Assembly: GCA_913057645.1 (NCBI GenBank)
Contig: CAJXOU010000002.1
Location: 32,952 to 96,951 of the forward strand
Origin: an uncultured Rhodobiaceae bacterium
GTDB lineage: Bacteria > Pseudomonadota > Alphaproteobacteria > Parvibaculales > Parvibaculaceae
Direction: 5' to 3'
Length of the DNA: 64,000 bases
Shown: one piece after another, positions 6,485 to 56,225 of the stretch
Layout: every line of letters starts with the position of its first letter
Numbering within the stretch: position 1 is the stretch's first letter
Made by a program: the position numbers and the translations under genes
Notes under the pieces: model-generated
Told to the model about the DNA's origin: nothing
The model's input: only the letters and a program-made list of their open reading frames with translations
Database searches by the model: none

Positions 6485-7510
6485 ATGCCACGCATCCTGG
6501 CCGTCACGGCTGGTTCTTCAGGCAAGCACAGTCCTGTCACGTCTGCGCTTCGCGAACTTTATGGCGCAGAAATACTGCCCGGAAAAGCGTGCTCCGAGAG
6601 CGGTGCAGACCGGATCTGGCGCAAGCTGGGGCTGGCCGAGCGCATCGGCACCCATGCCACCAATATCCGCATGCTCAACCGTGCGATCCTCGACCGCGCC
6701 GGGACATTCGATATCCTGTTCGTGGTCAAGGGCAATTTTGTCACCGCCGACACGCTGCGGCGGCTCAAGGCGCGCGGCGACGCGCCCCGCATCATCGGCT
6801 GGTCCTGCGACGATGTTTACCTGCCCCACAACAGCTCCGTTGTGTTGCGAGAAGCGGCGCCTTCCTACGACATTTTCTACACTGCCAAGTCGCTGAACAT
6901 CTCGCAGGGGGAGTTGGCGAAGATGGGGTTTCGCGATGCGCGTTTTCTGCATCAGGGTTTCGATTGCGAGATGCACCGTCCCCTGCCCGATCCAGATTCA
7001 CGCTTTGCCGGCCTCATTACTTTCGTCGGTTTCGGTGAGGAGGATCGTTTCAACAAGATGAACTACCTGGCACGGAACGGGATCGAGGTGCATGTCTGGG
7101 GCAACGGCTGGACTCGCGCCATGCGCGCAAGGGCCGATCAGCGATTGCACATCCATGCCCGTCCACTGTTTGGGGACGATTATGCCGACGCCCTGAGCAA
7201 TTCGGCGATCAACCTGTGCTTTCTGCGCAAGCTCAACCGTGATTTACACACATCGCGCTCCTTCGAAATCCCGGCCTGCGGTGGCTTTATGGTTGCCGAG
7301 CGTACCGATGAGCATCGCGCCTATTTCGAAGAGGACGCGGAGGCTGTCTATTTTGACGATACGAGGGAGCTTCTGGACAAGGTGCAGTATTACCTCCGCC
7401 ATCCGGAACAACGGGTAAGCATTGCGGCGGCCGGACGGCAGAGATGTCTCGACAGCGACTATTCCTATCACCGGTTGGCGCGTGACATGATCGAGGGCCG
7501 CGTGTCGTGA
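6485..7510 (+). CDS. CgeB-like glycosyltransferase
   Basis: LHTSRSFEIPACGGFMVAERTDEHRAYFEEDAEAVYFDD, YYLRHPEQRVSIAAAGRQRC. Confidence 0.82.
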   Translation: MPRILAVTAGSSGKHSPVTSALRELYGAEILPGKACSESGADRIWRKLGLAERIGTHATNIRMLNRAILDRAGTFDILFVVKGNFVTADTLRRLKARGDAPRIIGWSCDDVYLPHNSSVVLREAAPSYDIFYTAKSLNISQGELAKMGFRDARFLHQGFDCEMHRPLPDPDSRFAGLITFVGFGEEDRFNKMNYLARNGIEVHVWGNGWTRAMRARADQRLHIHARPLFGDDYADALSNSAINLCFLRKLNRDLHTSRSFEIPACGGFMVAERTDEHRAYFEEDAEAVYFDDTRELLDKVQYYLRHPEQRVSIAAAGRQRCLDSDYSYHRLARDMIEGRVS

Positions 7511-8790
7511 AATTCCGCAGTATCCTTAGGCAGTCGGCGGCCTCGCTGCTGGCGTCGAACGGGGTCTACGTCTACACCTTCCTGTGCACCGTTCTTCTGA
7601 TGCGGATGCTGCTGCCGGAAGATTTCGGCGCCGTGGCGTTGGCGGTGGCGCTAGTGGGTCTCATCGAGATACTCACCACATTTTCATTCAATACTGTGCT
7701 GATACAGCAACGCGAGCAGGCGTCTCTGGTGCGGTCGGTATTCCAGGGCGCGCTGGCGGTGATCTTGTTAAAAGTGCTTCTGGGGGCGGTGTTCTTTGTG
7801 GTCCTGCAGTCCGAGTACGGTCCGCAGATATGGCATCTGTTCGGACTGCTCATGGCCAGCAAGATGTTCGCCAGCGTTGGTCCGCTGCTGGTCGCCCGAC
7901 TTGAAAAGCGCGGCGATTTCTTGCGTGCCGCGCTGGTTACCGGGGGTGCCAACATGGTGGCGGTGACGGTGGCGGTGGTCGCTGTGTACGCCGGGTCGGG
8001 CACCTATGGGCTGGTGTTGCGCGAGGTGCTGCCGCCGGTGCTGATCGTTGCCGCGATGGTGGCGTTCCAGCCCGAATTGCTGCCGCGCGATCTGCGTCGA
8101 CTGCACCGCCGGCAGCTGCGCGTGGTGGCGGCGGCCTCGACGCGGCTCTATTTCCAGCGTGGAGCCGAATTGGCTTACATGCGCGTGCCGCTACTAATGG
8201 TCGAAAGCCTGTTCGGTTCGGCGGCGCTAGGTCTGTTTTCGCAGGCAACGTATCTGGTGACGCTAGTCAATCGTGTCACTGCCATCGTCAATGCCCATAT
8301 CGCCACCGTGTTTTTCAACCGCAATCGGCGTGATGCGCACGAAACGCATACGGGATTCATCTGGTTGTTCGCAGCTAACGTAGTCGTGGCACTTCCGTTG
8401 ACTTTGCTCTTGTGGCTGTTCTCAGAGCAGATCGTGCTGTTGCTGTGGGGTGAGAGCTGGCTGAACGCTGTGCCCTATGTACAGTTGATGGCGGCGATGA
8501 CGCTGTTACTGCCGATCTTCACGTTGTTGAAATCCCGCCTTCTGGGCCTGCGTCGGAACCATGCGATCACAGCCGTCTACGCCACCGGGCTGGTCTTCCT
8601 GGTGCTGGGGCTATGGACTGTCCACGCGCTCGCCGAGCCGGCCAGTTGGGCGGCAGGGCTGACTGCCGCGGCCTATGCGTTGATGGTGGTGCTGTGTGGA
8701 GTGGTCCTGTGGAGCATCCGTCATGCCGCCGGGTTGCATGGCGCGGCCCAACTGCGCGCTGTTCGACAGAACGAGACGAGAGGCCGATGA
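7507..8790 (+). CDS. Oligosaccharide flippase family protein (Wzx-like polysaccharide transporter)
   Basis: Multi-TM protein; N-terminal MRMLLPEDFGAVALAVALVGLIEI characteristic of MATE/PST flippases; overlaps upstream stop. Confidence 0.9.
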   Translation: MKFRSILRQSAASLLASNGVYVYTFLCTVLLMRMLLPEDFGAVALAVALVGLIEILTTFSFNTVLIQQREQASLVRSVFQGALAVILLKVLLGAVFFVVLQSEYGPQIWHLFGLLMASKMFASVGPLLVARLEKRGDFLRAALVTGGANMVAVTVAVVAVYAGSGTYGLVLREVLPPVLIVAAMVAFQPELLPRDLRRLHRRQLRVVAAASTRLYFQRGAELAYMRVPLLMVESLFGSAALGLFSQATYLVTLVNRVTAIVNAHIATVFFNRNRRDAHETHTGFIWLFAANVVVALPLTLLLWLFSEQIVLLLWGESWLNAVPYVQLMAAMTLLLPIFTLLKSRLLGLRRNHAITAVYATGLVFLVLGLWTVHALAEPASWAAGLTAAAYALMVVLCGVVLWSIRHAAGLHGAAQLRAVRQNETRGR

Positions 8791-44067: not shown

Positions 44068-45633
44068 TCAGCAGGCGCCACGGCGCAGCAGCACGGCGGG
44101 CAAGGTCTTGAACATGATCGCGATGTCCTGCCAGAGCGACCAGTTCTTCACATACCAGGCGTCGAGCTCCACACGGCGCATATAGGTCGTGTCGTTGCGG
44201 CCGCTCACCTGCCAGAGACCGGTGATGCCGGGCTTGGCGGAGAGGTAGTATTCCGCGTCCTCGCCATAGCGAAGCACTTCCGCGTAGGTCACGGGGCGGG
44301 GACCGACCAGGCTCATCTCGCCACGGATCACGTTGATGAGCTGCGGCAGCTCGTCGAGACTGGTCTTGCGCAGGAAGGCGCCGACCGCCGTCACGCGCGG
44401 ATCGTTGCGCAGCTTCTGGTCGCGCGCCCATTCGGCCGCGGCCTGCGGATTGTTTTCCAGCACGTCCTTCAGGATCGCCTCGCTGTCGACATGCATCGTG
44501 CGGAACTTGCGGCAGAGGAACTCGCGGCCCTTCTCGCCGACGCGGCGATGGGCGAAGAAGGCGGCACCGCCGTCAAGGCGGATAAGCGCGGAAACGGCCC
44601 AGAAGAAGGGCATGAGGGCGAACAGGGCAGCGCTTGCTACCACGAGGTCGAAGCTGCGCTTCATGATGCGCGCCATCGGCCGGTTCAGATTGTCGGCCAG
44701 CGTCAGCATCACGAGGTCGTGGCTGAAGAAATTGCCGGCCTCGAGCGCCATCACGCCGATGCCCTTCACGGGCGGCACGATAGAGAAGGCGATGCGGGCG
44801 CGGTGCAGCGCACGCAGGATGTGGTCGAGGCTCGCCATTTCCTCGGGCGAGGGCGCGAGGACCACGAAGCGCGCGCCGTGGCGCTCGCAGGCGAGCTTCA
44901 GGGCTGCCGAAAGCTGGCCGCCCGCCTGATAGAGAAGGCTGTTCGGATTGGACGCATTGCGCTCGGAGGCGAGGTCGGCCAGGTCGATCGCACCGGCGAC
45001 TTCGTAGCCCAGATAGGGTTCGTCCTCGAGCACCTGGGCGGCTTCGTCGGTGTTCTCTTTCGAGCCGATCAGGAGAACGGGTGCGGTCCAGCTTCCGTAC
45101 CGCTTCAGGACATGTCTCATCGCGATACGGGTGACGGGCACGAACGCCAGCGCCCAGATCCATGCCTGGAGCATCCAGAGACGGGAGAAATAGTCCTTGG
45201 TGAGGTACTGGAGGAAGCCGTCGACAAGCGCGACGAGGGCGATGCCCTTCACGATTTCCTTGGTCTCGGCCCAGAACGGCGTGCGCTTCGAATAGTGGCC
45301 CTTCGCCGCCCACCAGAGGACCGGCAGCATCAGCAGGAAACCGATACGGACAAGGCGGCTCGTCAGTTCGCCGGCTTCAAGTGCTGCAAATTCCGTGTTG
45401 AGAACCTGCACATTGATGCCGAAAGCGATGGAACCCGCGATGATCTGCGCCAGCGCCAGTGCGCCAAGGTCGCCAACCAGCAGCATGAAGCGGTCGGCGA
45501 GGGGCGTCAGCCGCGTGCCGGCGCCGGTTTCCTCCCGGTAGCTGCTTTCGAAGCCTTCAACGGGGGGAACGGCGACGGGGGTCGACGCGCCGAAGGTCTG
45601 AATGTGCTTTTCGATTGCGGTCACGGTACTCAC
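44068..45633 (-). CDS. Exopolysaccharide polyprenyl glycosylphosphotransferase (WbaP/ExoY-like)
   Basis: AFFAHRRVGEKGREFLCRKFRTMHVDSEAIL, RKTSLDELPQLINVIRGEMSLVGPRPVTYAEV, KPGITGLWQVSGRND. Confidence 0.96.
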   Translation of the reverse strand: MSTVTAIEKHIQTFGASTPVAVPPVEGFESSYREETGAGTRLTPLADRFMLLVGDLGALALAQIIAGSIAFGINVQVLNTEFAALEAGELTSRLVRIGFLLMLPVLWWAAKGHYSKRTPFWAETKEIVKGIALVALVDGFLQYLTKDYFSRLWMLQAWIWALAFVPVTRIAMRHVLKRYGSWTAPVLLIGSKENTDEAAQVLEDEPYLGYEVAGAIDLADLASERNASNPNSLLYQAGGQLSAALKLACERHGARFVVLAPSPEEMASLDHILRALHRARIAFSIVPPVKGIGVMALEAGNFFSHDLVMLTLADNLNRPMARIMKRSFDLVVASAALFALMPFFWAVSALIRLDGGAAFFAHRRVGEKGREFLCRKFRTMHVDSEAILKDVLENNPQAAAEWARDQKLRNDPRVTAVGAFLRKTSLDELPQLINVIRGEMSLVGPRPVTYAEVLRYGEDAEYYLSAKPGITGLWQVSGRNDTTYMRRVELDAWYVKNWSLWQDIAIMFKTLPAVLLRRGAC

Positions 45634-45776
45634 ACCAATTTGTATCCGAATGCGACAGTTGGTCTGTGAGGTCGCAAGTTGTGCGCCAGCCGGTTTCGTC
45701 CCGTTTTGGGCGCGTGAACAGGGTAAACGCCGTCTTAAAATCCGGAGGTATTCAGTGTGGCCGCAGCCGTATCATC

Positions 45777-46442
45777 TCATCCGAAGAGACCGCGAATATC
45801 CGCGCGCACGATTTCGCCGAGCGCGGCGAATATCCGCATGTTCGCCCGCAGGCGCCGGTCGAAGCGCGGTGCATCCAGCCGCCGCGTGCCGCGCACGGGA
45901 ATCTGCCGGAAGCTCGTACCTCTGCGAAGCGAGTTGATTGCGAGTTCCGTGCCGATGGAGTTCGTGTGATCGAAGCCCCTGTTTTCCGCGGCGAGCCTCA
46001 GGTCGTAGCCTTTCATGCCGCAGAGAATGTCGCGTGCGCCGAATCTGAGACGCACGTAAAGCCCCATCACGATTTCCGCGAAGCGCTGCTTGTGCGGGCG
46101 AACGCCGAGAACGAGCGGCATGCCTTCGTCGGCGAGCAGTGACTTGAAGCTCGCGACGAGGGCGGGATCGTGTTCGCCGTCGGCATCCATCGTGATGGCG
46201 TAGGCGAAGCCCCGTGCGAGGGCTTCCTCGAAAGCGCGGTTCAGCGTGCCGTCATAGCCGAGATTGGTCTCGTTGCGGATGACAATGGCGCCTGCTCTTG
46301 CGGCTTCTGCGCCGGTCTCGTCGGGCGAGGCGTCGTCCACCACGATCACCTCGGCGTGTTCACGTGCGGCCCTCACGATACTTCCGATGGTTGCCGCCTC
46401 GCGGAACGCGGGGATCAGGATCGCTATGCGAGATCGGTCCAC
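45777..46442 (-). CDS. Glycosyltransferase family 2 (dolichol-P-mannose synthase-like)
   Basis: IAILIPAFREAATIGSIVRAAREHAEVIVVDDASPDETGAEAARAGA; ITMDADGEHDP. Confidence 0.93.
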   Translation of the reverse strand: MDRSRIAILIPAFREAATIGSIVRAAREHAEVIVVDDASPDETGAEAARAGAIVIRNETNLGYDGTLNRAFEEALARGFAYAITMDADGEHDPALVASFKSLLADEGMPLVLGVRPHKQRFAEIVMGLYVRLRFGARDILCGMKGYDLRLAAENRGFDHTNSIGTELAINSLRRGTSFRQIPVRGTRRLDAPRFDRRLRANMRIFAALGEIVRADIRGLFG

Positions 46443-47500
46443 AGTAATTCCTTCCCGGCCTCTTTCGCCGAAGCGAGGCGCTTTCCGAGCACCTTCGACA
46501 GCGCGTCCGGCGACACTGCTCCCTCGGGGCAGGGACGGAGCGCTTCGAGATGATCCTGCGACAGCACCGTTCCGGCATCGAGCGCGGTCTTGAGGCGGAG
46601 CGCGCGCCGCTGAATTATCACCGTCTCCATCTCGTTCTTCTCGATCCGCTTCACGCCGTCACCGAGTGCAGCTTCGAGTTCGCGTGTCGCATCGACCATC
46701 GCGCGCCACGTCACCGGATTGAGAGCAAAGGAATGGTCCGGGCCTTCGCGGGAATTGTCGTCCGTGAAGTGCTTTTCGATCACGCGCGCGCCGAGTGCCA
46801 CCGCGCCGAGTACAGCGGAGTGCCCGGGGGTGTGATCCGAGAAACCGAGCACCATGCCCGGCCAGCGCGCTGCGAATGTCTGCAGCACGTGCAGGTTCAC
46901 ATATTTGAAGTTCTCGGGACTGCCCGTGTAGTTCGTGTTGCACTGCATGAGGCAGAGCTGGCGGTTGTGACGCAGAACGAGATCGGCCGCGGCCTCGACT
47001 TCCGCCATCGTTGCGGCACCGGTTGCGAGCAGGACGGGCTTTCCGGTCTTCGCGATGTGTTCGACTTCCTCGTGAAAGGTGATGTCGCCCGAGCCGATCT
47101 TGTATGCAGGAACGATGTCGCGGAACATGTCCACGGCCTCGATGTCATAAGGCGTGGTCATGAAATGAATGTCCGCCTTGCGGCAGGTTTCGACCAGTTC
47201 ATCCGTCCAGTCGCGGCGCGTATGATACTGGTCGTAGACCTCGACGACCGACTTCTTCCATTTCGCCTGATGCGAGACCTGCCCCTTCGGCCCTTCGAAT
47301 CCGACCTTGCTCACGATCCTGTCTGCAATGAAGTGCTGGAACTTGGCGCAGTCCGCGCCTGCTTCCTTCGACTTCCAGATCAGGTCCTTCGCGCGTTCGA
47401 GATTGCCGTCATGATTGGCGGCGATGTCGGCGATGAAATAGCTGGGTGCGTCGAGCGCGATTTCATGCGTTCCGATGCGGAGCGAGCTGTCGTAGGTCAT
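46424..47500 (-). CDS. N-acetylneuraminate synthase-family (NeuB/SpsE-like) condensing enzyme
   Basis: YFIADIAANHDGNLERAKDLIWKSKEAGADCAKFQHF, KIGSGDITFHEEVEHIAKTGKPVLLATGAATMAEV, GFSDHTPGHSAVLGAVALGARVIEKHFTDD; SAF-like C-terminus. Confidence 0.95.
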   Translation of the reverse strand: MTYDSSLRIGTHEIALDAPSYFIADIAANHDGNLERAKDLIWKSKEAGADCAKFQHFIADRIVSKVGFEGPKGQVSHQAKWKKSVVEVYDQYHTRRDWTDELVETCRKADIHFMTTPYDIEAVDMFRDIVPAYKIGSGDITFHEEVEHIAKTGKPVLLATGAATMAEVEAAADLVLRHNRQLCLMQCNTNYTGSPENFKYVNLHVLQTFAARWPGMVLGFSDHTPGHSAVLGAVALGARVIEKHFTDDNSREGPDHSFALNPVTWRAMVDATRELEAALGDGVKRIEKNEMETVIIQRRALRLKTALDAGTVLSQDHLEALRPCPEGAVSPDALSKVLGKRLASAKEAGKELLWTDLA

Positions 47501-48365
47501 GGGCCGATATCTCGTTGTAGCGGTGAAGAACGGATGCAACCACTTCGGGAAGTTCAGGCAGCCTGCGCCCGAGAAGCGTTTCTGCGCGGGTGACGTCGAG
47601 GCCGAGGCAATGGGCACGCGTCGTGGCGAGACCGCGAACGGAGCCGGATGTTGCGGCGGTGAGCTTCCGCTCAAGCTGCCGGGCGATTTCGCGCACGAAG
47701 TCTTCCTTCGTATATACCTCGCCCGCGGCGAGGTTGTAGAGGCCGGACATCTCTGCCTCCGCCATGTCGAAGGCGGCGCGCGCGAAGCTTCCGACATCGA
47801 TGGAAGAGGACCACGCATCGGCGAAGAGCTGGGCGGGCCGATCGTTCAGGGCGACATCGATTGCCCATTCGGCAAGCGTCTGCTTCTCCCAGCCGCGAAT
47901 GCCGACAATGCTGGTACGGAGCACGAGTGCGTTCGCCGCCGTCAGGGCGAAAGCCTCTCCCGCAAATTTCGTTCGAGCATATTCGTTGACGAGGGAGACG
48001 GGCGTCATCTCATCATGCGCCTCTCTGCCACCTTCGGTGAAATACTGGTCCGTCGAGACATGTATGAGTTTGCCGCCGCTTTCGCGCGCCCAGGCGGCGA
48101 GAAAGGCGAGGGGACGTGCGTTCGTGCTCCAGGCATCGAGAGGATTGCGCTCGCAGGCTTCGATGTCCGTGAGGGCGGCGCAGTTGAAGACCATGTCGGG
48201 GTTCTCGGCGGCAAGTACCTCCTGCAGTGCCTGCTCATCGGCAATGTCGAGCGTAATCTCCGCGTTTCGCCGGGCCGCTTCCCGCAATGCGTGACCCCGC
48301 AGCCGCGCTTCTTCCGCGACCGCCCGGCCAAGCAATCCGGTGCTGCCCAACAGAAGAAGCTTCAT
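47463..48365 (-). CDS. RmlD-like sugar-nucleotide reductase (NAD(P)-binding)
   Basis: MKLLLLGSTGLLGRAVAEEARLRG, VFNCAALTDIEACERNP, HVSTDQYFTEGG, YARTKFAGE. Confidence 0.9.
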   Translation of the reverse strand: MKLLLLGSTGLLGRAVAEEARLRGHALREAARRNAEITLDIADEQALQEVLAAENPDMVFNCAALTDIEACERNPLDAWSTNARPLAFLAAWARESGGKLIHVSTDQYFTEGGREAHDEMTPVSLVNEYARTKFAGEAFALTAANALVLRTSIVGIRGWEKQTLAEWAIDVALNDRPAQLFADAWSSSIDVGSFARAAFDMAEAEMSGLYNLAAGEVYTKEDFVREIARQLERKLTAATSGSVRGLATTRAHCLGLDVTRAETLLGRRLPELPEVVASVLHRYNEISAHDLRQLAPHRNA

Positions 48366-49412
48366 TCAGCCGTGCCTTTCGAACTGGAGAAGCATATGCA
48401 CTTCGGAAGACAGATGCCGCCGGTCCAGTGCTTCCTGCATGGCGTCTATCGCAGGCTTCATCATACCTGTCCAGAGCTCGGCGGCGCCCGCTGTCTTGTC
48501 TGAAGCGGACAGCCGGACGAGAATGCTGCGGTAGAGATCCATCACGTCGCCACCGAACCACCATTCCGCTACCCGGTTCATTCCGAATTCGCGGCAGGTC
48601 CAGTCTAGCGAGGATTCCGAATAGAGGTGCGTATGTCCACCGGAGAGATGCCGCTGCATCACGTCCTGGAAGGCCGCTTCTATGAAGACGCTCGGGCTGA
48701 AAAGCGGCACGGAGATGTAGAGATAGGAAACGGCCTCGTTGTCCTTAAGGGCGGCGAGAAGTTCGCGCGGCTGCTGCAGGTGCTCCAGCACGCCGATCAG
48801 TGAGACGACTTTCGCATCCACTTCGCCCGCGAGCGAAACCGTATCGCCAAGGGCATGGGTGCGGACGACCGCTTCCCCCGCCATCTCGTTTGCGAGGCTC
48901 GCCTGCGTTTCCGAAACCTCGAAACCGCGAATATCGGTGAGCCCGGTGGCGCGGAGCGCGGAAACGAAATAGCCGGAGCCCGCGCCGAAGTCGGCATAGG
49001 AAAGCGCGTTGGGGTCTTCTCCCTTTGCGGCGAGCGCATCGACGAGAAAGCGCGCCTTCGGCAGATAGATGTCCTCTGTGCGCCTTCGATAGGCTTCGCG
49101 GTCGGCGGAGCTGTAGTCGCGCGCATAGGCCGCCCCGCCCGCCTCGACATAGAGTTCGGAACAGAAGGCGTCGCTGTCCTCGAATGCGCCATTCAGATGG
49201 CCGCAGCGGGGACAGACGAGATAGTCGATGCCGAGCTTCGAGAAGCTGACCTCGCTTACAGGGCCGTCGCAGGCCTTGCAGCGCAGGCGCCTCGGCTGTT
49301 CAGCGTAAAGCGCCGCCAGTCCGATCTGGCGCTGCAGAAGCGCCGCGTTCTCGTCGAAGAAATGCGATTTGTGAGAGAGCAGAGGTGCGCTCGGCTTGCC
49401 GTATTTCTGCAT
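48366..49412 (-). CDS. Class I SAM methyltransferase with N-terminal zinc-ribbon
   Basis: RCKACDGPVSEVSFSKLGIDYLVCPRCG; SYADFGAGSGYFVSALRATGL, VVSLIGVLEHLQQPRELLAALKD. Confidence 0.88.
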   Translation of the reverse strand: MQKYGKPSAPLLSHKSHFFDENAALLQRQIGLAALYAEQPRRLRCKACDGPVSEVSFSKLGIDYLVCPRCGHLNGAFEDSDAFCSELYVEAGGAAYARDYSSADREAYRRRTEDIYLPKARFLVDALAAKGEDPNALSYADFGAGSGYFVSALRATGLTDIRGFEVSETQASLANEMAGEAVVRTHALGDTVSLAGEVDAKVVSLIGVLEHLQQPRELLAALKDNEAVSYLYISVPLFSPSVFIEAAFQDVMQRHLSGGHTHLYSESSLDWTCREFGMNRVAEWWFGGDVMDLYRSILVRLSASDKTAGAAELWTGMMKPAIDAMQEALDRRHLSSEVHMLLQFERHG

Positions 49413-49438
49413 GATGGACCTCCCCTGCGAAGCCTTTG

Positions 49439-50155
49439 TCAGCGCTGAAGCCGCATGGCATTCAGCTCCTGAAGATGCTTGTTCTCCTCGCAGACCTTCA
49501 GCGTTTCCGTCCAGGAGGGAATGCCGTCGCCGAGCAAAGGAAAGAGCGCACGGCAGAATTCGAGGTCTTCGGGATAGTCGAGCGTCCAGCGCAGCTTGCC
49601 GAGGTCTTCGCTCGGGCCCTCCAGCGAGACACGGCTGATCTCCGGTGCACGGCGCAGCCAGGGCGTCACGTGTTCGCGGTCGTAGGGCTCGCGCGCTTCC
49701 TTCCAGTCGCGCTCCATCGCTGTCCAGGTGAAGGCTTCGCAGTCAAGCCCGTGCGGATAGCGGTGGACGAAATTGTTGGCGGCATAGTCGACGGAAACGT
49801 CGCCGGCAACGGCCGAGAGCACCTCGCCGCAGAGGCCGGGATCGATCAGCGGGCAATCGCTCGTCACCCGCATGATGATATCCGCGCCGAGATCGCGCGC
49901 GGCGGTGTAGTAGCGGTCGAGCACATCATGCTCCGAGCCACGCGCCACTGTGGCGCCACACGCCTCGGCTTCCCGTGCAACGGGTTCCTGCTCCGGGCCT
50001 TCCGGCACGGCGCAACAGACGATGTCGATGCCGGGAATGGCGGCACAGCGCGTCAGCACATGCCACAGCACGGTCCTGCCCGCCACCTCCTCCAGCACCT
50101 TGCCGGGCAGGCGTGTCGAGGTCATGCGCGCCTGAACGATGACGACGTTTGTCAT
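49439..50155 (-). CDS. Cytidylyltransferase-domain protein (SpsF-like)
   Basis: NVVIVQARMTSTRLPGKVLEEVAGRTVLWHVLTRC, VLDRYYTAARDLGADIIMRVTSDCPLIDP. Confidence 0.93.
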   Translation of the reverse strand: MTNVVIVQARMTSTRLPGKVLEEVAGRTVLWHVLTRCAAIPGIDIVCCAVPEGPEQEPVAREAEACGATVARGSEHDVLDRYYTAARDLGADIIMRVTSDCPLIDPGLCGEVLSAVAGDVSVDYAANNFVHRYPHGLDCEAFTWTAMERDWKEAREPYDREHVTPWLRRAPEISRVSLEGPSEDLGKLRWTLDYPEDLEFCRALFPLLGDGIPSWTETLKVCEENKHLQELNAMRLQR

Positions 50156-50180
50156 GTCCGTTACCGCCTTGCGGGGACGC

Positions 50181-51215
<1,035 letters not shown>

Positions 51216-51305: not shown

Positions 51306-52874
51306 TCAGGCGGTGGCGCGGGAGGCGTCCGGCAGGGCGACGATCCGCCCGGCGGGGAAGGTCAGCGTGATCGTGGTGCCCCGGCCCGGCTCGCTTTCGA
51401 TGTCGAGCGTGCCGCCATGATGTTCCATCAGGCAGAGCGAGAGCGGCAGGCCGAGCCCGGTGCCCTCGTATTTCCTCGACAGGTCGGAATCGATCTGCCC
51501 GAAGCGCTCCAGCGCCAGCGGAATGTCCTGCTTCGCGATGCCGATACCCGTATCGGCGACCCGCAGCACGAACCCCTCGGGCCCGGCCGCCGCCTCGACC
51601 GTCACCTGGCCGCCGTCGGGCGTGAACTTGACCGCGTTCGAGAGGAGGTTGAGCAGCACCTGCCGCACGCGGCGGTGGTCGGCGCGGATATGGGGCAGGG
51701 GGGAGGCGAATCCCGTGCGGATCTCGATCTTCTGCGTGGTGGCCTGCGCCTCGATCATTCTGATCGCGTCAGCCGCCACCTCCTCGATGTCGACATCTTC
51801 CTCGTGGATATGGAGTTCGCCCGCATCGGCGCGCGTGAAGTCCAGCACATCGTTGATGAGAGCGAGCAGATGCTTTCCGCTTCGGTAGATGTCCTGCGAA
51901 TAGTCCTTGTAGCGCGGGTTTCCGAGTGGGCCGAAGGTTTCCGCCGTCATGATTTCGGAAAACCCCAGAATGGCGTTCAGCGGTGTGCGCAGTTCGTGGC
52001 TCATGGTGGCGAGGAACTGCGACTTCGCGTGGTTGGCGGCGGAAGCGGTCTTGAGCGCGACCATGAGGTCGGCCGATGTCGCTTCGAGCTTCTTCTTCGT
52101 TTCCTCGAGTTCGAGGACATGCGCGCGCAGCCGCCTGGCTTCCTTGACCGTCCGATCCGCGAGATGGCGGTCGACCGCGATGCCGGCATAGGCGAGGACA
52201 ACGATCAGAAGCGTCACGGCGGCGACGGCGATGGCGAGCGCAAGGGAATCGACGGCGTTGCCCGCGATCTCGACGCTCGGATCGCCTGCAATGGACATGG
52301 CCGCCATGCCGGTGAAATGCAGGCCGCAGATCGCGATCGTTGCGAGTATCCAGCAGACGTGAATGCGCCACCGGCCCTTCAGCGAGAAGGCCGCCTCGGA
52401 GGCCGCGGCGGCGAAAAGCGTGCCGATCACGATGGAAGCGGCGATGAAATCCCGGTCCCAGGTGATGTATCCGTGCACGCTGATGGCCGACATGCCGACA
52501 TAGTGCATCGCGCCGATGGCGAGGCCGATGATGGCGCCGCCGATGCCCGCCGGACGGAATCGCGTGGAGACCGCAAAGCCGATGCTCGCAAAGACGATGG
52601 CGATGACGAAGGAAAGGAAGGTGATGCCCGGATCGTAGCTGACGGGCGTTTCCGGCTGGAAGGCCAGCATGGCGATGAAGTGCGTCGCCCAGATGCCGCA
52701 ACCTGCAACGGTTCCCGCGCCCAGAATCCAGATCGAGCGCCGTTGTTCGCCCTCTTCCGTGGAACGCAGGAGAAGATGGGTCGCAGAAAACGTCGCAAAC
52801 ATGCAGATGAATCCCGCCAGAACGACGAGACGCAGATCATGTTCGACGGTGATGCAGTTGTAGACCGTCAGCAT
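51306..52874 (-). CDS. MHYT-domain sensor histidine kinase
   Basis: MHYT motifs WATHFIAM, AMHYVGM, GLHFTGM; HisKA SQFLATMSHELRTPLNAILGFSEIM; HATPase ADTGIGIAKQDIPLALERFGQ, GTGLGLPLS. Confidence 0.96.
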   Translation of the reverse strand: MLTVYNCITVEHDLRLVVLAGFICMFATFSATHLLLRSTEEGEQRRSIWILGAGTVAGCGIWATHFIAMLAFQPETPVSYDPGITFLSFVIAIVFASIGFAVSTRFRPAGIGGAIIGLAIGAMHYVGMSAISVHGYITWDRDFIAASIVIGTLFAAAASEAAFSLKGRWRIHVCWILATIAICGLHFTGMAAMSIAGDPSVEIAGNAVDSLALAIAVAAVTLLIVVLAYAGIAVDRHLADRTVKEARRLRAHVLELEETKKKLEATSADLMVALKTASAANHAKSQFLATMSHELRTPLNAILGFSEIMTAETFGPLGNPRYKDYSQDIYRSGKHLLALINDVLDFTRADAGELHIHEEDVDIEEVAADAIRMIEAQATTQKIEIRTGFASPLPHIRADHRRVRQVLLNLLSNAVKFTPDGGQVTVEAAAGPEGFVLRVADTGIGIAKQDIPLALERFGQIDSDLSRKYEGTGLGLPLSLCLMEHHGGTLDIESEPGRGTTITLTFPAGRIVALPDASRATA

Positions 52875-53016: not shown

Positions 53017-54708
53017 TCAGCTTTCATTCGGCTGCTGCGCGAGCCTGTCGAGAAAGCGGTAGAGCGCGATGCCGGCGAGGATCGCCACCACGCCCGTGAC
53101 GACCGTCCCGTCGATGTTCACGGGAACGAAGGGGTCGGCGGAAACGAGCTTCGCCTTGCCGTGGATCATCTCGTACTGGCGGTCCTTGAACGGCCAGACG
53201 GCGAGCAGCGATCCGCAGAGAACGCCGATCACGGTGAGCATGGTGCGGCGGTAGAAGCGCTCGAGCAGCCATGAGATGGCGCGCGAAAAGATCAGCGCAC
53301 CGGTCACGACGCCGCCTGCAAGCGGCAGCAGGAACGACATGTCGACGCGGCCCAGCGCATCGATGGCGTCGGTGTACTTGCCGAGAATGAGGAGCACGAA
53401 GGAGCCTGAAATGCCGGGCACCAGCATGGCGGCGATGGCTGCCATGCCGCAGAGAAAGACGAACCAGGCGGCGTCCGGGGTGTCGACCGGGACGAGGATG
53501 GCGGCCAGCAGCCCCAGGCAGGTGCCGAACGCGATCCAGGCGATGCCCCTCGCGCCGCCGGTTTCGACATGGCCGATGAGGCCCACGATGGAGGCCGCGA
53601 TGAGGCCGAAGAAGAAGCCGAACGTCATTTCAGGGAAGCTCGCCACGAGCAGGGAGAGCGGAATGACGCGGCTGAAGATGATGAGCGAGAGCAGCGCCCC
53701 CACCCCGATCGGCAGGATGAAGAGGAGATCGACATGGCGCGCGGCGGCCGTGAAGTCGAGCCGTCTCAGATTGCCGAGCAATTCCCGGTCGAAATGCGCA
53801 ATGGCGGAGATCAGGCGTTTGTAGACGCCGAGGATCAGCGCCATCGTCCCGCCGCTGACGCCGGGCACCAGATCGGCGGCACCGATGCACATGCCGCGCA
53901 GCGTCTGCTTCGCCGGATGATAGTTTTCCCGGCCCTCGACGCTCAGCCGCGCCGTCAGTCCCTCCCAGCGGGCCAGCAGACCGTCGACCGGCAGATGCGC
54001 CAGACGGTAGAGCCGGTAGACGACAGGCGTTCCCGTTGCGAGCGCCAGCGTGGCGAGCGCGGCGACACCGCCGCCGGCGATGATGTCCGTCGTCCATTCG
54101 GTGCCGGTGGCGATGCGGGGCAGGGCGAGCAGCACGGTGAAGGCCAGCGCGGCAAGGCCGAGACGGAGGCCAAAGCCCATCCAGAGCAGCACCGTCAGGG
54201 AGCCGGTCAGCACCGCATGGCCCGCCGGGAAGGGAGACAACGGGTTCAGGCCCGCCTCCGACCAGGGCAGGACGGCGGATATGGCATGGTGGCCGGGCAG
54301 CGAAGCCGCGGGCGAGGGCCGAAGAATGTCCGGCGCGGCGAGTTGCAGGGCGAACAGCGCCACCGAAACAACGAGCACGCTCAGCCCCAGGGCCATGTCG
54401 TGGCGGAAGCCTTGCCCCCTTTCGTGGCCGAGGCGAACGAGGAAAGCCGCCAGGAGGGTCAGCGCCAGAAAGGCGGCAAATCGAGGCTCGCATCCGATTG
54501 CCCAGATGGCCGCCGCGGCGTCGCTTTGCGGGATGGTGCCGTTCAGCAGGCGGAAGATGGCGCGATCCGCCGCCTCCCAGATCCGCGCGAGCGGCGCAAC
54601 ATGCCACGAGGCGGCAAGGGCCAGCGCGGCGCCGAGCCAGAGCGCAAGCGGGCCGGGACGCCAGGCCGCCGACATCGGGAACATGCCGGGTTCCCCTTGC
54701 CTTTCCAT
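53017..54708 (-). CDS. PAP2-like domain fused to DUF368 (polyprenyl-phosphate transporter family)
   Basis: N-term PAP2-like PFPAGHAVLTGSL ... LPRIATGTEWTTDIIAGG; C-term DUF368 LRGMCIGAADLVPGVSGGTMALILGVYKRLI, FFFGLIAAS, LVPGISGSFVLLILGKYTDAI; RBS before internal ATG at 54708. Confidence 0.88.
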   Translation of the reverse strand: MERQGEPGMFPMSAAWRPGPLALWLGAALALAASWHVAPLARIWEAADRAIFRLLNGTIPQSDAAAAIWAIGCEPRFAAFLALTLLAAFLVRLGHERGQGFRHDMALGLSVLVVSVALFALQLAAPDILRPSPAASLPGHHAISAVLPWSEAGLNPLSPFPAGHAVLTGSLTVLLWMGFGLRLGLAALAFTVLLALPRIATGTEWTTDIIAGGGVAALATLALATGTPVVYRLYRLAHLPVDGLLARWEGLTARLSVEGRENYHPAKQTLRGMCIGAADLVPGVSGGTMALILGVYKRLISAIAHFDRELLGNLRRLDFTAAARHVDLLFILPIGVGALLSLIIFSRVIPLSLLVASFPEMTFGFFFGLIAASIVGLIGHVETGGARGIAWIAFGTCLGLLAAILVPVDTPDAAWFVFLCGMAAIAAMLVPGISGSFVLLILGKYTDAIDALGRVDMSFLLPLAGGVVTGALIFSRAISWLLERFYRRTMLTVIGVLCGSLLAVWPFKDRQYEMIHGKAKLVSADPFVPVNIDGTVVTGVVAILAGIALYRFLDRLAQQPNES

Positions 54709-54950
54709 CGATGTCTCCAGCCGCTGCCGTCCCTCGGGAATCGCATCGGAGTCTAGGGTTTGCACGGCGGGAATGACACCGGAATTCGCCTCGCGGATCG
54801 CGGCGCGCCGACATCTCGCCGCATTTCACCGTCAGAGTCGGTTGGTCGAGCAGCGATTAACCGACACAGCAAAAGGGCGGATGTGCCATCTGCGAATTTG
54901 AAGAAGGGCGTGATAGCGTCTCGCCCATGATGTCATCCGGAGAGCATTCG

Positions 54951-56225
54951 ATGTCCGCCTTCCGTCCGTCCCGCCCCGTCCGGGCGCGGCGCCTTGCCTT
55001 GCCTGCTTTCGTTCTTCTGGCGCTCGCCGTCACCGGCTGTGCGGCGGATGCGGCGCCCGAGACAACGCTGCCGCTTCCCTCGCCGGTGACCGAGAACGCC
55101 GCCTTTGCCGACTGGCTCACCGCCTTTCGGGCGGATGCGCTCAAGGCCGGCATCGCCGGCGAGACCTTCGACCGCTCGCTGGCGGGTGTGCGGATCGACC
55201 GCGACGTCATCGAGGCGAACGAAAGCCAGCCGGAGTTCACGAAACCCGTCTGGGAATATCTCGAAGGCGCCCTTTCCGACACGCGCGTCGCTAAAGGCAA
55301 GGCGCTGCTCGCGGAGAACGAGGCGCTGCTCGGCCGGATCGAGGAGCGCTACGGCGTCGACCGCCATGTGCTGGTCGCGATCTGGGGGCTCGAATCCAAC
55401 TACGGCTCCTTTCAGGGCACGATGAGCGTCGTGCGTTCGCTCGCCACCCTCGGCTTCGAGGGGCGGCGGACCGAATATGGCCGCACCCAGCTCATCGCGG
55501 CCTTGCAGATCATCCAGCATGGCGACATCGCGCCGGCGAGCATGACCGGCTCCTGGGCGGGCGCGATGGGCCAGACGCAGTTCATTCCCACGACCTACAA
55601 TGTCCATGCCGTCGATTTCGACGGCGACGGACGGCGCGACATCTGGAACTCCCACGCCGATGCGCTCGCGTCGGCCGCGCATTATCTTTCCCGGTCCGGC
55701 TGGAAGACCGGCGCGACCTGGGGCTACGAGGTCAAGCTGCCGCAGGGCTTCGACTATGCGAGCGCCGACATGTCGGTCTCGAAGACGGTCGGCGAATGGT
55801 CCGCCGCGCGGATCGCCCGCATCGACGGACGGCCCTTTCCGCAAGGCGAGGCGGACGAAAAGGCGTCGATCTTCCTGCCCGCCGGTCATCGCGGCCCCGC
55901 CTTCCTCGTCATGGGCAATTTCCGCACCGTGCTCGCCTACAACGCCTCCACCTCCTATTCGCTGGCGGTGAACCTGCTCGCCGACCGGTTCAGGGGCCGG
56001 GGCGAGATTGCCGGCACATGGCCGCGCGGCGACCGGCCGCTCGGGCGGCAGGAGCGCCACGACCTGCAGCGGCTTCTCACGGAGAACGGCTACGACACGG
56101 GCGGCGTCGACGGGATCATCGGTTACAACACGCGCAAGGCGATCCGGGCGTTTCAGCAGGACGCCGAACTGCCGGCGGATGGCTATCCGACGCCCGGTCT
56201 GCTGGAAAAACTGCGCCGCCGCTGA
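54951..56225 (+). CDS. Lytic murein transglycosylase (MltB family), lipoprotein, C-terminal peptidoglycan-binding domain
   Basis: Lipobox LAVTGCA; IWGLESNYGSFQGTMSVVRSLATLGFEGRR, GSWAGAMGQTQFIPTTY; C-term LQRLLTENGYDTGGVDGIIGYNTRKAIRAFQ. Confidence 0.95.
   Translation: MSAFRPSRPVRARRLALPAFVLLALAVTGCAADAAPETTLPLPSPVTENAAFADWLTAFRADALKAGIAGETFDRSLAGVRIDRDVIEANESQPEFTKPVWEYLEGALSDTRVAKGKALLAENEALLGRIEERYGVDRHVLVAIWGLESNYGSFQGTMSVVRSLATLGFEGRRTEYGRTQLIAALQIIQHGDIAPASMTGSWAGAMGQTQFIPTTYNVHAVDFDGDGRRDIWNSHADALASAAHYLSRSGWKTGATWGYEVKLPQGFDYASADMSVSKTVGEWSAARIARIDGRPFPQGEADEKASIFLPAGHRGPAFLVMGNFRTVLAYNASTSYSLAVNLLADRFRGRGEIAGTWPRGDRPLGRQERHDLQRLLTENGYDTGGVDGIIGYNTRKAIRAFQQDAELPADGYPTPGLLEKLRRR

Follow-up and report, generated by a model that had tools for sequence, protein, structure and literature searches.

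One gene in the 64,000-nucleotide stretch of DNA analysed here (the window, from an uncultured Rhodobiaceae bacterium) encodes a protein that is probably a DUF368-type undecaprenyl-phosphate (Und-P) flippase in which a non-catalytic PAP2 domain has been retained and which derives from a PAP2-DUF368 ancestor that was itself probably both Und-PP phosphatase and Und-P flippase. The fused architecture as such is already known; what is new is its evolutionary history. According to the scenario that we favour, the ancestor arose once in Parvibaculum, and in the lineage of the window the DUF368 half has been strongly constrained, while the PAP2 half has lost its nucleophile (H204E) and been remodelled but is still present as a folded membrane module. 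The latter probably serves a non-catalytic role, such as flippase support, positioning, gating, or the docking of a separate phosphatase like BacA, and Und-PP hydrolysis could be supplied by BacA or by two other PAP2 proteins. The sequences themselves show the fusion, its single origin, the losses of residues, the shift in rate and the remaining purifying selection; that the protein flips Und-P, that it has no phosphatase activity and that the PAP2 half plays a supporting part are inferred from them. Considering the fact that the genome encodes BacA (L046) as well as two other PAP2 proteins, one with canonical motifs (L048) and one with a PAGH motif (L049), the phosphatase supply need not come from the fused domain.

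The coordinates of the fused gene, its domains and its neighbours are given in Table 1. The gene starts at the ATG at 54708, with a GGAG six bases upstream (54715-54718), stops at 53017, and has a GC content at third positions (0.86) like that of the adjacent genes. The identical fused frame was found in 15 other Parvibaculum genomes, which excludes a frameshift or an assembly artefact. The original prediction of one reading frame joining a PAP2-type N-terminal domain to a DUF368 domain was confirmed by the frame itself, by Pfam and by AlphaFold2/Foldseek. The PAP2 profile (PF01569) was recovered reproducibly, with an E-value of 7.9e-5 for the whole protein and 3.4e-5 for the N-terminal half, yet under the Pfam gathering score. 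The AlphaFold2 (AF2) model of the protein (alignment of 44 relatives; mean pLDDT 87, pTM 0.80) ranked LpxE (6ebu) and a B. subtilis structure (5jki) at the top in Foldseek, with probability 1.00 and a TMt of 0.52 and 0.44, respectively, although the E-values were no better than 0.03-0.05; a PDB sequence search gave no relevant match. Both profile and predicted structure identify the N-terminal half as PAP2, in a divergent form.

Table 1. Position of the fused gene, its domains and motifs, and associated genes (coordinates refer to the window unless a locus is given)
Feature	Coordinates	Strand	Remarks
PAP2-DUF368 fusion gene	53017..54708	(-)	563 aa, single intact ORF
N-terminal PAP2-fold domain, residues 16-228	54025..54663	(-)	Pfam PF01569 and AF2/Foldseek; probably catalytically dead
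Motif C1, residues 123-130	54319..54342	(-)	L123 replaces K/R; R130 kept
Motif C2, PAGH, residues 161-164	54217..54228	(-)	usually PGDH in the family
Motif C3, PRIATGTEWTTD, residues 197-208	54085..54120	(-)	nucleophile His replaced by E204 (54097-54099); R198 and D208 kept
Linker helix, residues 229-255	53944..54024	(-)	joins PAP2 and DUF368 domains; AF2 secondary structure
DUF368 (VCA0040-like) domain, residues 275-516	53161..53886	(-)	Pfam PF04018, E 5.9e-71
MHYT-sensor histidine kinase	51306..52874	(-)	co-directional, 142 bp downstream of the fusion gene; conserved neighbour
SLT_2/MltB-type lytic transglycosylase	54927..56225	(+)	divergent; conserved neighbour of the fusion gene
Free-standing PAP2 genes	L041:3297-4094; L039:6532-7311; L042:4887-5654		in tandem with the b paralogue

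The deviations from the PAP2 motifs had been read exactly in the original prediction: a PAGH at C2, in which Ala162 takes the position of the Ser and His164 is kept, a Glu for the nucleophilic His of PAP2 phosphatases within PRIATGTEWTTD, and a missing Lys at C1, where L123 stands seven residues before R130. To weigh these changes we used the mutagenesis of E. coli PgpB (PMC7413402) as a yardstick. Loss of the nucleophile in PgpB (H207A) gave one of only two out of 24 variants that never complemented, with no detectable activity on either of the two substrates, G162D was likewise inactive, S161A was left with 0.14%, variants lacking either C2 His or C3 Arg kept around a quarter of the C55-PP activity, and loss of the C1 Lys (K97A) left the enzyme fully active (PMC7413402). 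The missing C1 Lys was dropped as an indication of inactivity, since the family has Arg at this position anyway and K97A is active. The suspicion that the N-terminal domain is non-catalytic is strengthened by the combination of H204E with these data. Of the 16 orthologues of the fused gene (the 'a' copies), five (in genomes G016, G017, G001, G022 and G012) keep the C3 nucleophile His, the C3 Asp, the C3 Arg, the C1 Arg and the C2 His. The other eleven lack at least one of these core residues: five, which constitute the clade of the window, share a Glu at the nucleophile position, and in the remaining six the C2 His, the C3 Arg or both are gone. Given the PgpB pattern, the H204E clade is the one group for which inactivity can be asserted with some confidence; in the six others the PAP2 domain may perhaps just be weakened. 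Even where the nucleophile is kept, Gly stands at the C2 Ser position and Asp at the C2 Gly position, although Asp at the latter is native in other C55-PP phosphatases (PMC7413402). As the C2 Ser is missing from every Parvibaculum copy, the 'intact' ones, and likewise the ancestor, are no more than presumed to be active.

By parsimony over the whole tree the C2 His changed four times or more, the C3 Arg three times or more and the nucleophile once, and the H204E clade was recovered by the DUF368 half alone as well (93/98). On the stem of this clade the PAP2 half shows 1.24 changes per site against 0.11 for the DUF368 half, a strong and domain-specific shift to a rate around ten times that of DUF368, in a PAP2 tree that has long branches and some unsure row placements. 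This sharp acceleration would suit a PAP2 half without any function beyond membrane insertion and decaying towards loss, and so would the facts that 50 of the 75 columns without variation among the copies that have this core have changed in the clade and that the dN/dS between its more distant members is around 0.5. We nevertheless regard such a passenger as unlikely, considering that none of the 16 orthologues has a truncation, frameshift or large deletion of the N-terminal half, that 25 family-wide invariant residues of the domain are still kept in the clade, and that for the PAP2 half dN/dS amounts to 0.27 between the window and its nearest relative (bootstrap 0.17-0.44) and 0.10 (0.07-0.16) in another pair within the clade, both already without the active site. 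The former value indicates that the domain is constrained and not freely decaying, although a value below 1 from two sequences may owe something to the need for membrane insertion alone. The overall pattern suggests a pseudoenzyme domain that is kept for non-catalytic use.

A genuinely bifunctional protein, whose PAP2 half would remove a phosphate from Und-PP outside and pass Und-P to the fused DUF368 half, would be compatible with the domain order, the substrates and the conserved cores of the five orthologues named above, but for the window protein it is very unlikely: both the Glu at the nucleophile and the Ala at the C2 Ser correspond to losses that leave PgpB with none or around 0.1% of its activity. 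The notion of lipid-carrier recycling in one polypeptide, put forward in the original prediction, is probably wrong here, as the window species has no phosphatase nucleophile left; orthologues in which the nucleophile persists together with its partners may still work in this way. We find it barely credible that the chemistry has changed instead, with E204 as a new nucleophile or with a different phosphorylated lipid as the substrate. All five members of the clade have this residue, and R198 is kept, but three of the five also lack the C2 His, the C1 Arg or the C3 Asp, and we know of no Glu nucleophile in the PAP2 superfamily. As to the pocket itself, PgpB H207A binds free phosphate tightly via Arg and Ser residues (PMC7413402), and a Glu at the nucleophile site could instead neutralise these Arg residues and thereby keep the pocket closed. 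Conserved ligand binding by the old pocket is argued against by the loss of the C1 Arg or the C2 His in sister species.

In favour of the flippase reading, the DUF368 half is complete and of the VCA0040 type. It scored 239 bits against PF04018 (cut-off 26) and covers positions 1-240 of the 246 of the profile; the conserved signatures GAADLVPGVSGGT and PGISGSF are both intact, and of 45 positions that are near-invariant among 57 outside sequences 39 are kept, the six exceptions being mostly conservative. Its dN/dS is 0.12. The NCBIfam equivalogs for polyprenyl-phosphate transporters gave 208 and 100 bits, below the curated cut-off of 400 bits, and the window protein is thus of the same family without being the equivalog. 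Judging from this conservation the protein most likely flips Und-P through its DUF368 half.

The fused gene was found in 16 of 27 Parvibaculum genomes, that of the window included, and had no match in ten genomes belonging to the same family and 24 more from the class. Of 289 alphaproteobacterial genomes searched with Pfam, one contained DUF368, namely that of the window; across the phylum 41 of 399 did, and, as judged by frame length and inspection, none besides the window's carries it as a fusion. Among the sampled Proteobacteria the fusion therefore appears peculiar to Parvibaculum. A 576-aa frame in G662 was rejected as a second proteobacterial fusion, as its upstream part looks like a GC-rich open frame ahead of the DUF368 Met and shows, by eye, no resemblance to PAP2. 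Matches on plasmids covered DUF368 halves alone, and no fusions were found there. In the DUF368 tree every fused copy falls within one clade (support 100), and on these sequences the PAP2-DUF368 ancestor arose once in Parvibaculum. Matches in Flavobacteriaceae were ruled out as independent fusions, being two adjacent free-standing DUF368 genes. These are different genes that overlap head to tail (e.g. L008:5968-6909 and 6896-7912, and other loci of this family), adjoin tetratricopeptide-like and aroE-like genes, and possibly specify a two-subunit flippase. The window's own genome further encodes a Phospholipase-D-like protein fused to a DedA/VTT domain (L052:1375-3351).

The 'a' orthologues share one locus, in which the lytic transglycosylase, the fused gene and the MHYT histidine kinase are followed by PseB/NeuA-like sugar genes, although in several genomes a neighbour is absent or extra genes are inserted. 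The nearness to glycan clusters that had been pointed out earlier is real but not specific, as the transglycosylase and histidine-kinase neighbours are kept across most of the genus. One of these clusters (44071-51182) is of the pseudaminic/sialic-acid type, with a Bac_transf phosphoglycosyl transferase, NeuB, a cytidylyltransferase and a PseB-like dehydratase; the second region (3310-33846) includes several glycosyltransferases, a heparinase II/III-like protein, a UDP-sugar dehydrogenase and a ManC-like protein. Some relatives have a pair of glycosidase-like genes, resembling GH4 and GH42 by eye, inserted between fused gene and transglycosylase (L064:4686-8067 and L058:9432-12832); the locus of the window has no such pair.

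Seven genomes contain a second fused paralogue (b), with 41-44% identity to the window protein, which in the locus examined lies directly downstream of a gene that we take, from its sequence, to be uvrB. In three of the seven, b is in tandem with a free-standing PAP2 gene of the same subfamily that has an intact active-site core. All b and free-standing PAP2 copies keep the C3 nucleophile His, the C3 Asp, the C3 Arg, the C1 Arg and the C2 His. The changes in b concern DUF368 positions that are near-invariant both in the 57 outside sequences and throughout the 'a' copies: all seven have S373A, M428A, G435A, F437L and K508Q, four are altered at G286, and the signature Asp279 is replaced by Gln in the b copies inspected for it. 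Of the 45 conserved positions 29-33 are kept in b versus 38-40 in 'a', and the DUF368 stem of the b paralogues measures 0.77 against 0.16. In the AF2 model of b (pLDDT 73, shallow alignment) the quality of the DUF368 half is too low for damage to be assessed. By these residue patterns it is the phosphatase half that tends to be lost in 'a' and the flippase half that is altered in b. This is a tendency and not a rule, since G001, G012 and G022 keep an intact 'a' and the window genome shows no b. An altered 'a' and a b with altered DUF368 coexist in G009, G010, G011 and G021. Compensation of the PAP2 loss by b was rejected as a general rule, because the window genome and six others with an altered PAP2 show no b. 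That the fused phosphatase-flippase was duplicated and the copies then split the work, with 'a' as flippase, b as phosphatase and the dead halves as structural or regulatory partners, is a tentative idea that we are inclined to doubt; if true, evolution itself would have taken apart two consecutive steps of carrier-lipid recycling.

A dead phosphatase half with a mirror-image paralogue was not found described in the literature searched, which consisted mostly of non-subscription papers. Whether Und-PP dephosphorylation is physically coupled to Und-P flipping could be tested with natural variants of this gene family, since it has orthologues with both sites apparently present, orthologues with a dead phosphatase and paralogues with an altered flippase. 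Fusions of this kind should not be annotated as bifunctional on domain names alone. Sit et al. 2022 (PMC9876793) list two-domain proteins of both orders from elsewhere, PAP2-DUF368 and DUF368-PAP2, and the window protein, a single chain with PAP2 N-terminal, belongs to the former; these proteins share with it the two families in one chain and the proposed pathway, and in the main text, which gives the architectures only, nothing was found on active-site state, history or paralogues. Like the VCA0040/DUF368 Und-P translocases (PF04018), the window protein has a complete DUF368 domain with the conserved signatures, and its best NCBIfam match is the VIBCH equivalog (the 208 bits given above, under the 400-bit cut-off); unlike these it is fused to PAP2, and the free-standing DUF368 proteins compared are around 25-40% identical to it. 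PA4011 of P. aeruginosa likewise joins a flippase-family domain to PAP2, although with DedA instead of DUF368 and in reversed order, and its deletion gave a partial phenotype only (PMC12893004). The C55-PP phosphatases PgpB, YbjG and BcrC have the same PAP2 fold and motif spacing but not the Glu at the nucleophile His or the Ala at the C2 Ser. Catalytic residues have also been lost in PLPP7/NET39, an inactive mammalian PAP2 relative (PMC7564803), which differs from the window protein in being eukaryotic and in lacking a transporter fusion.
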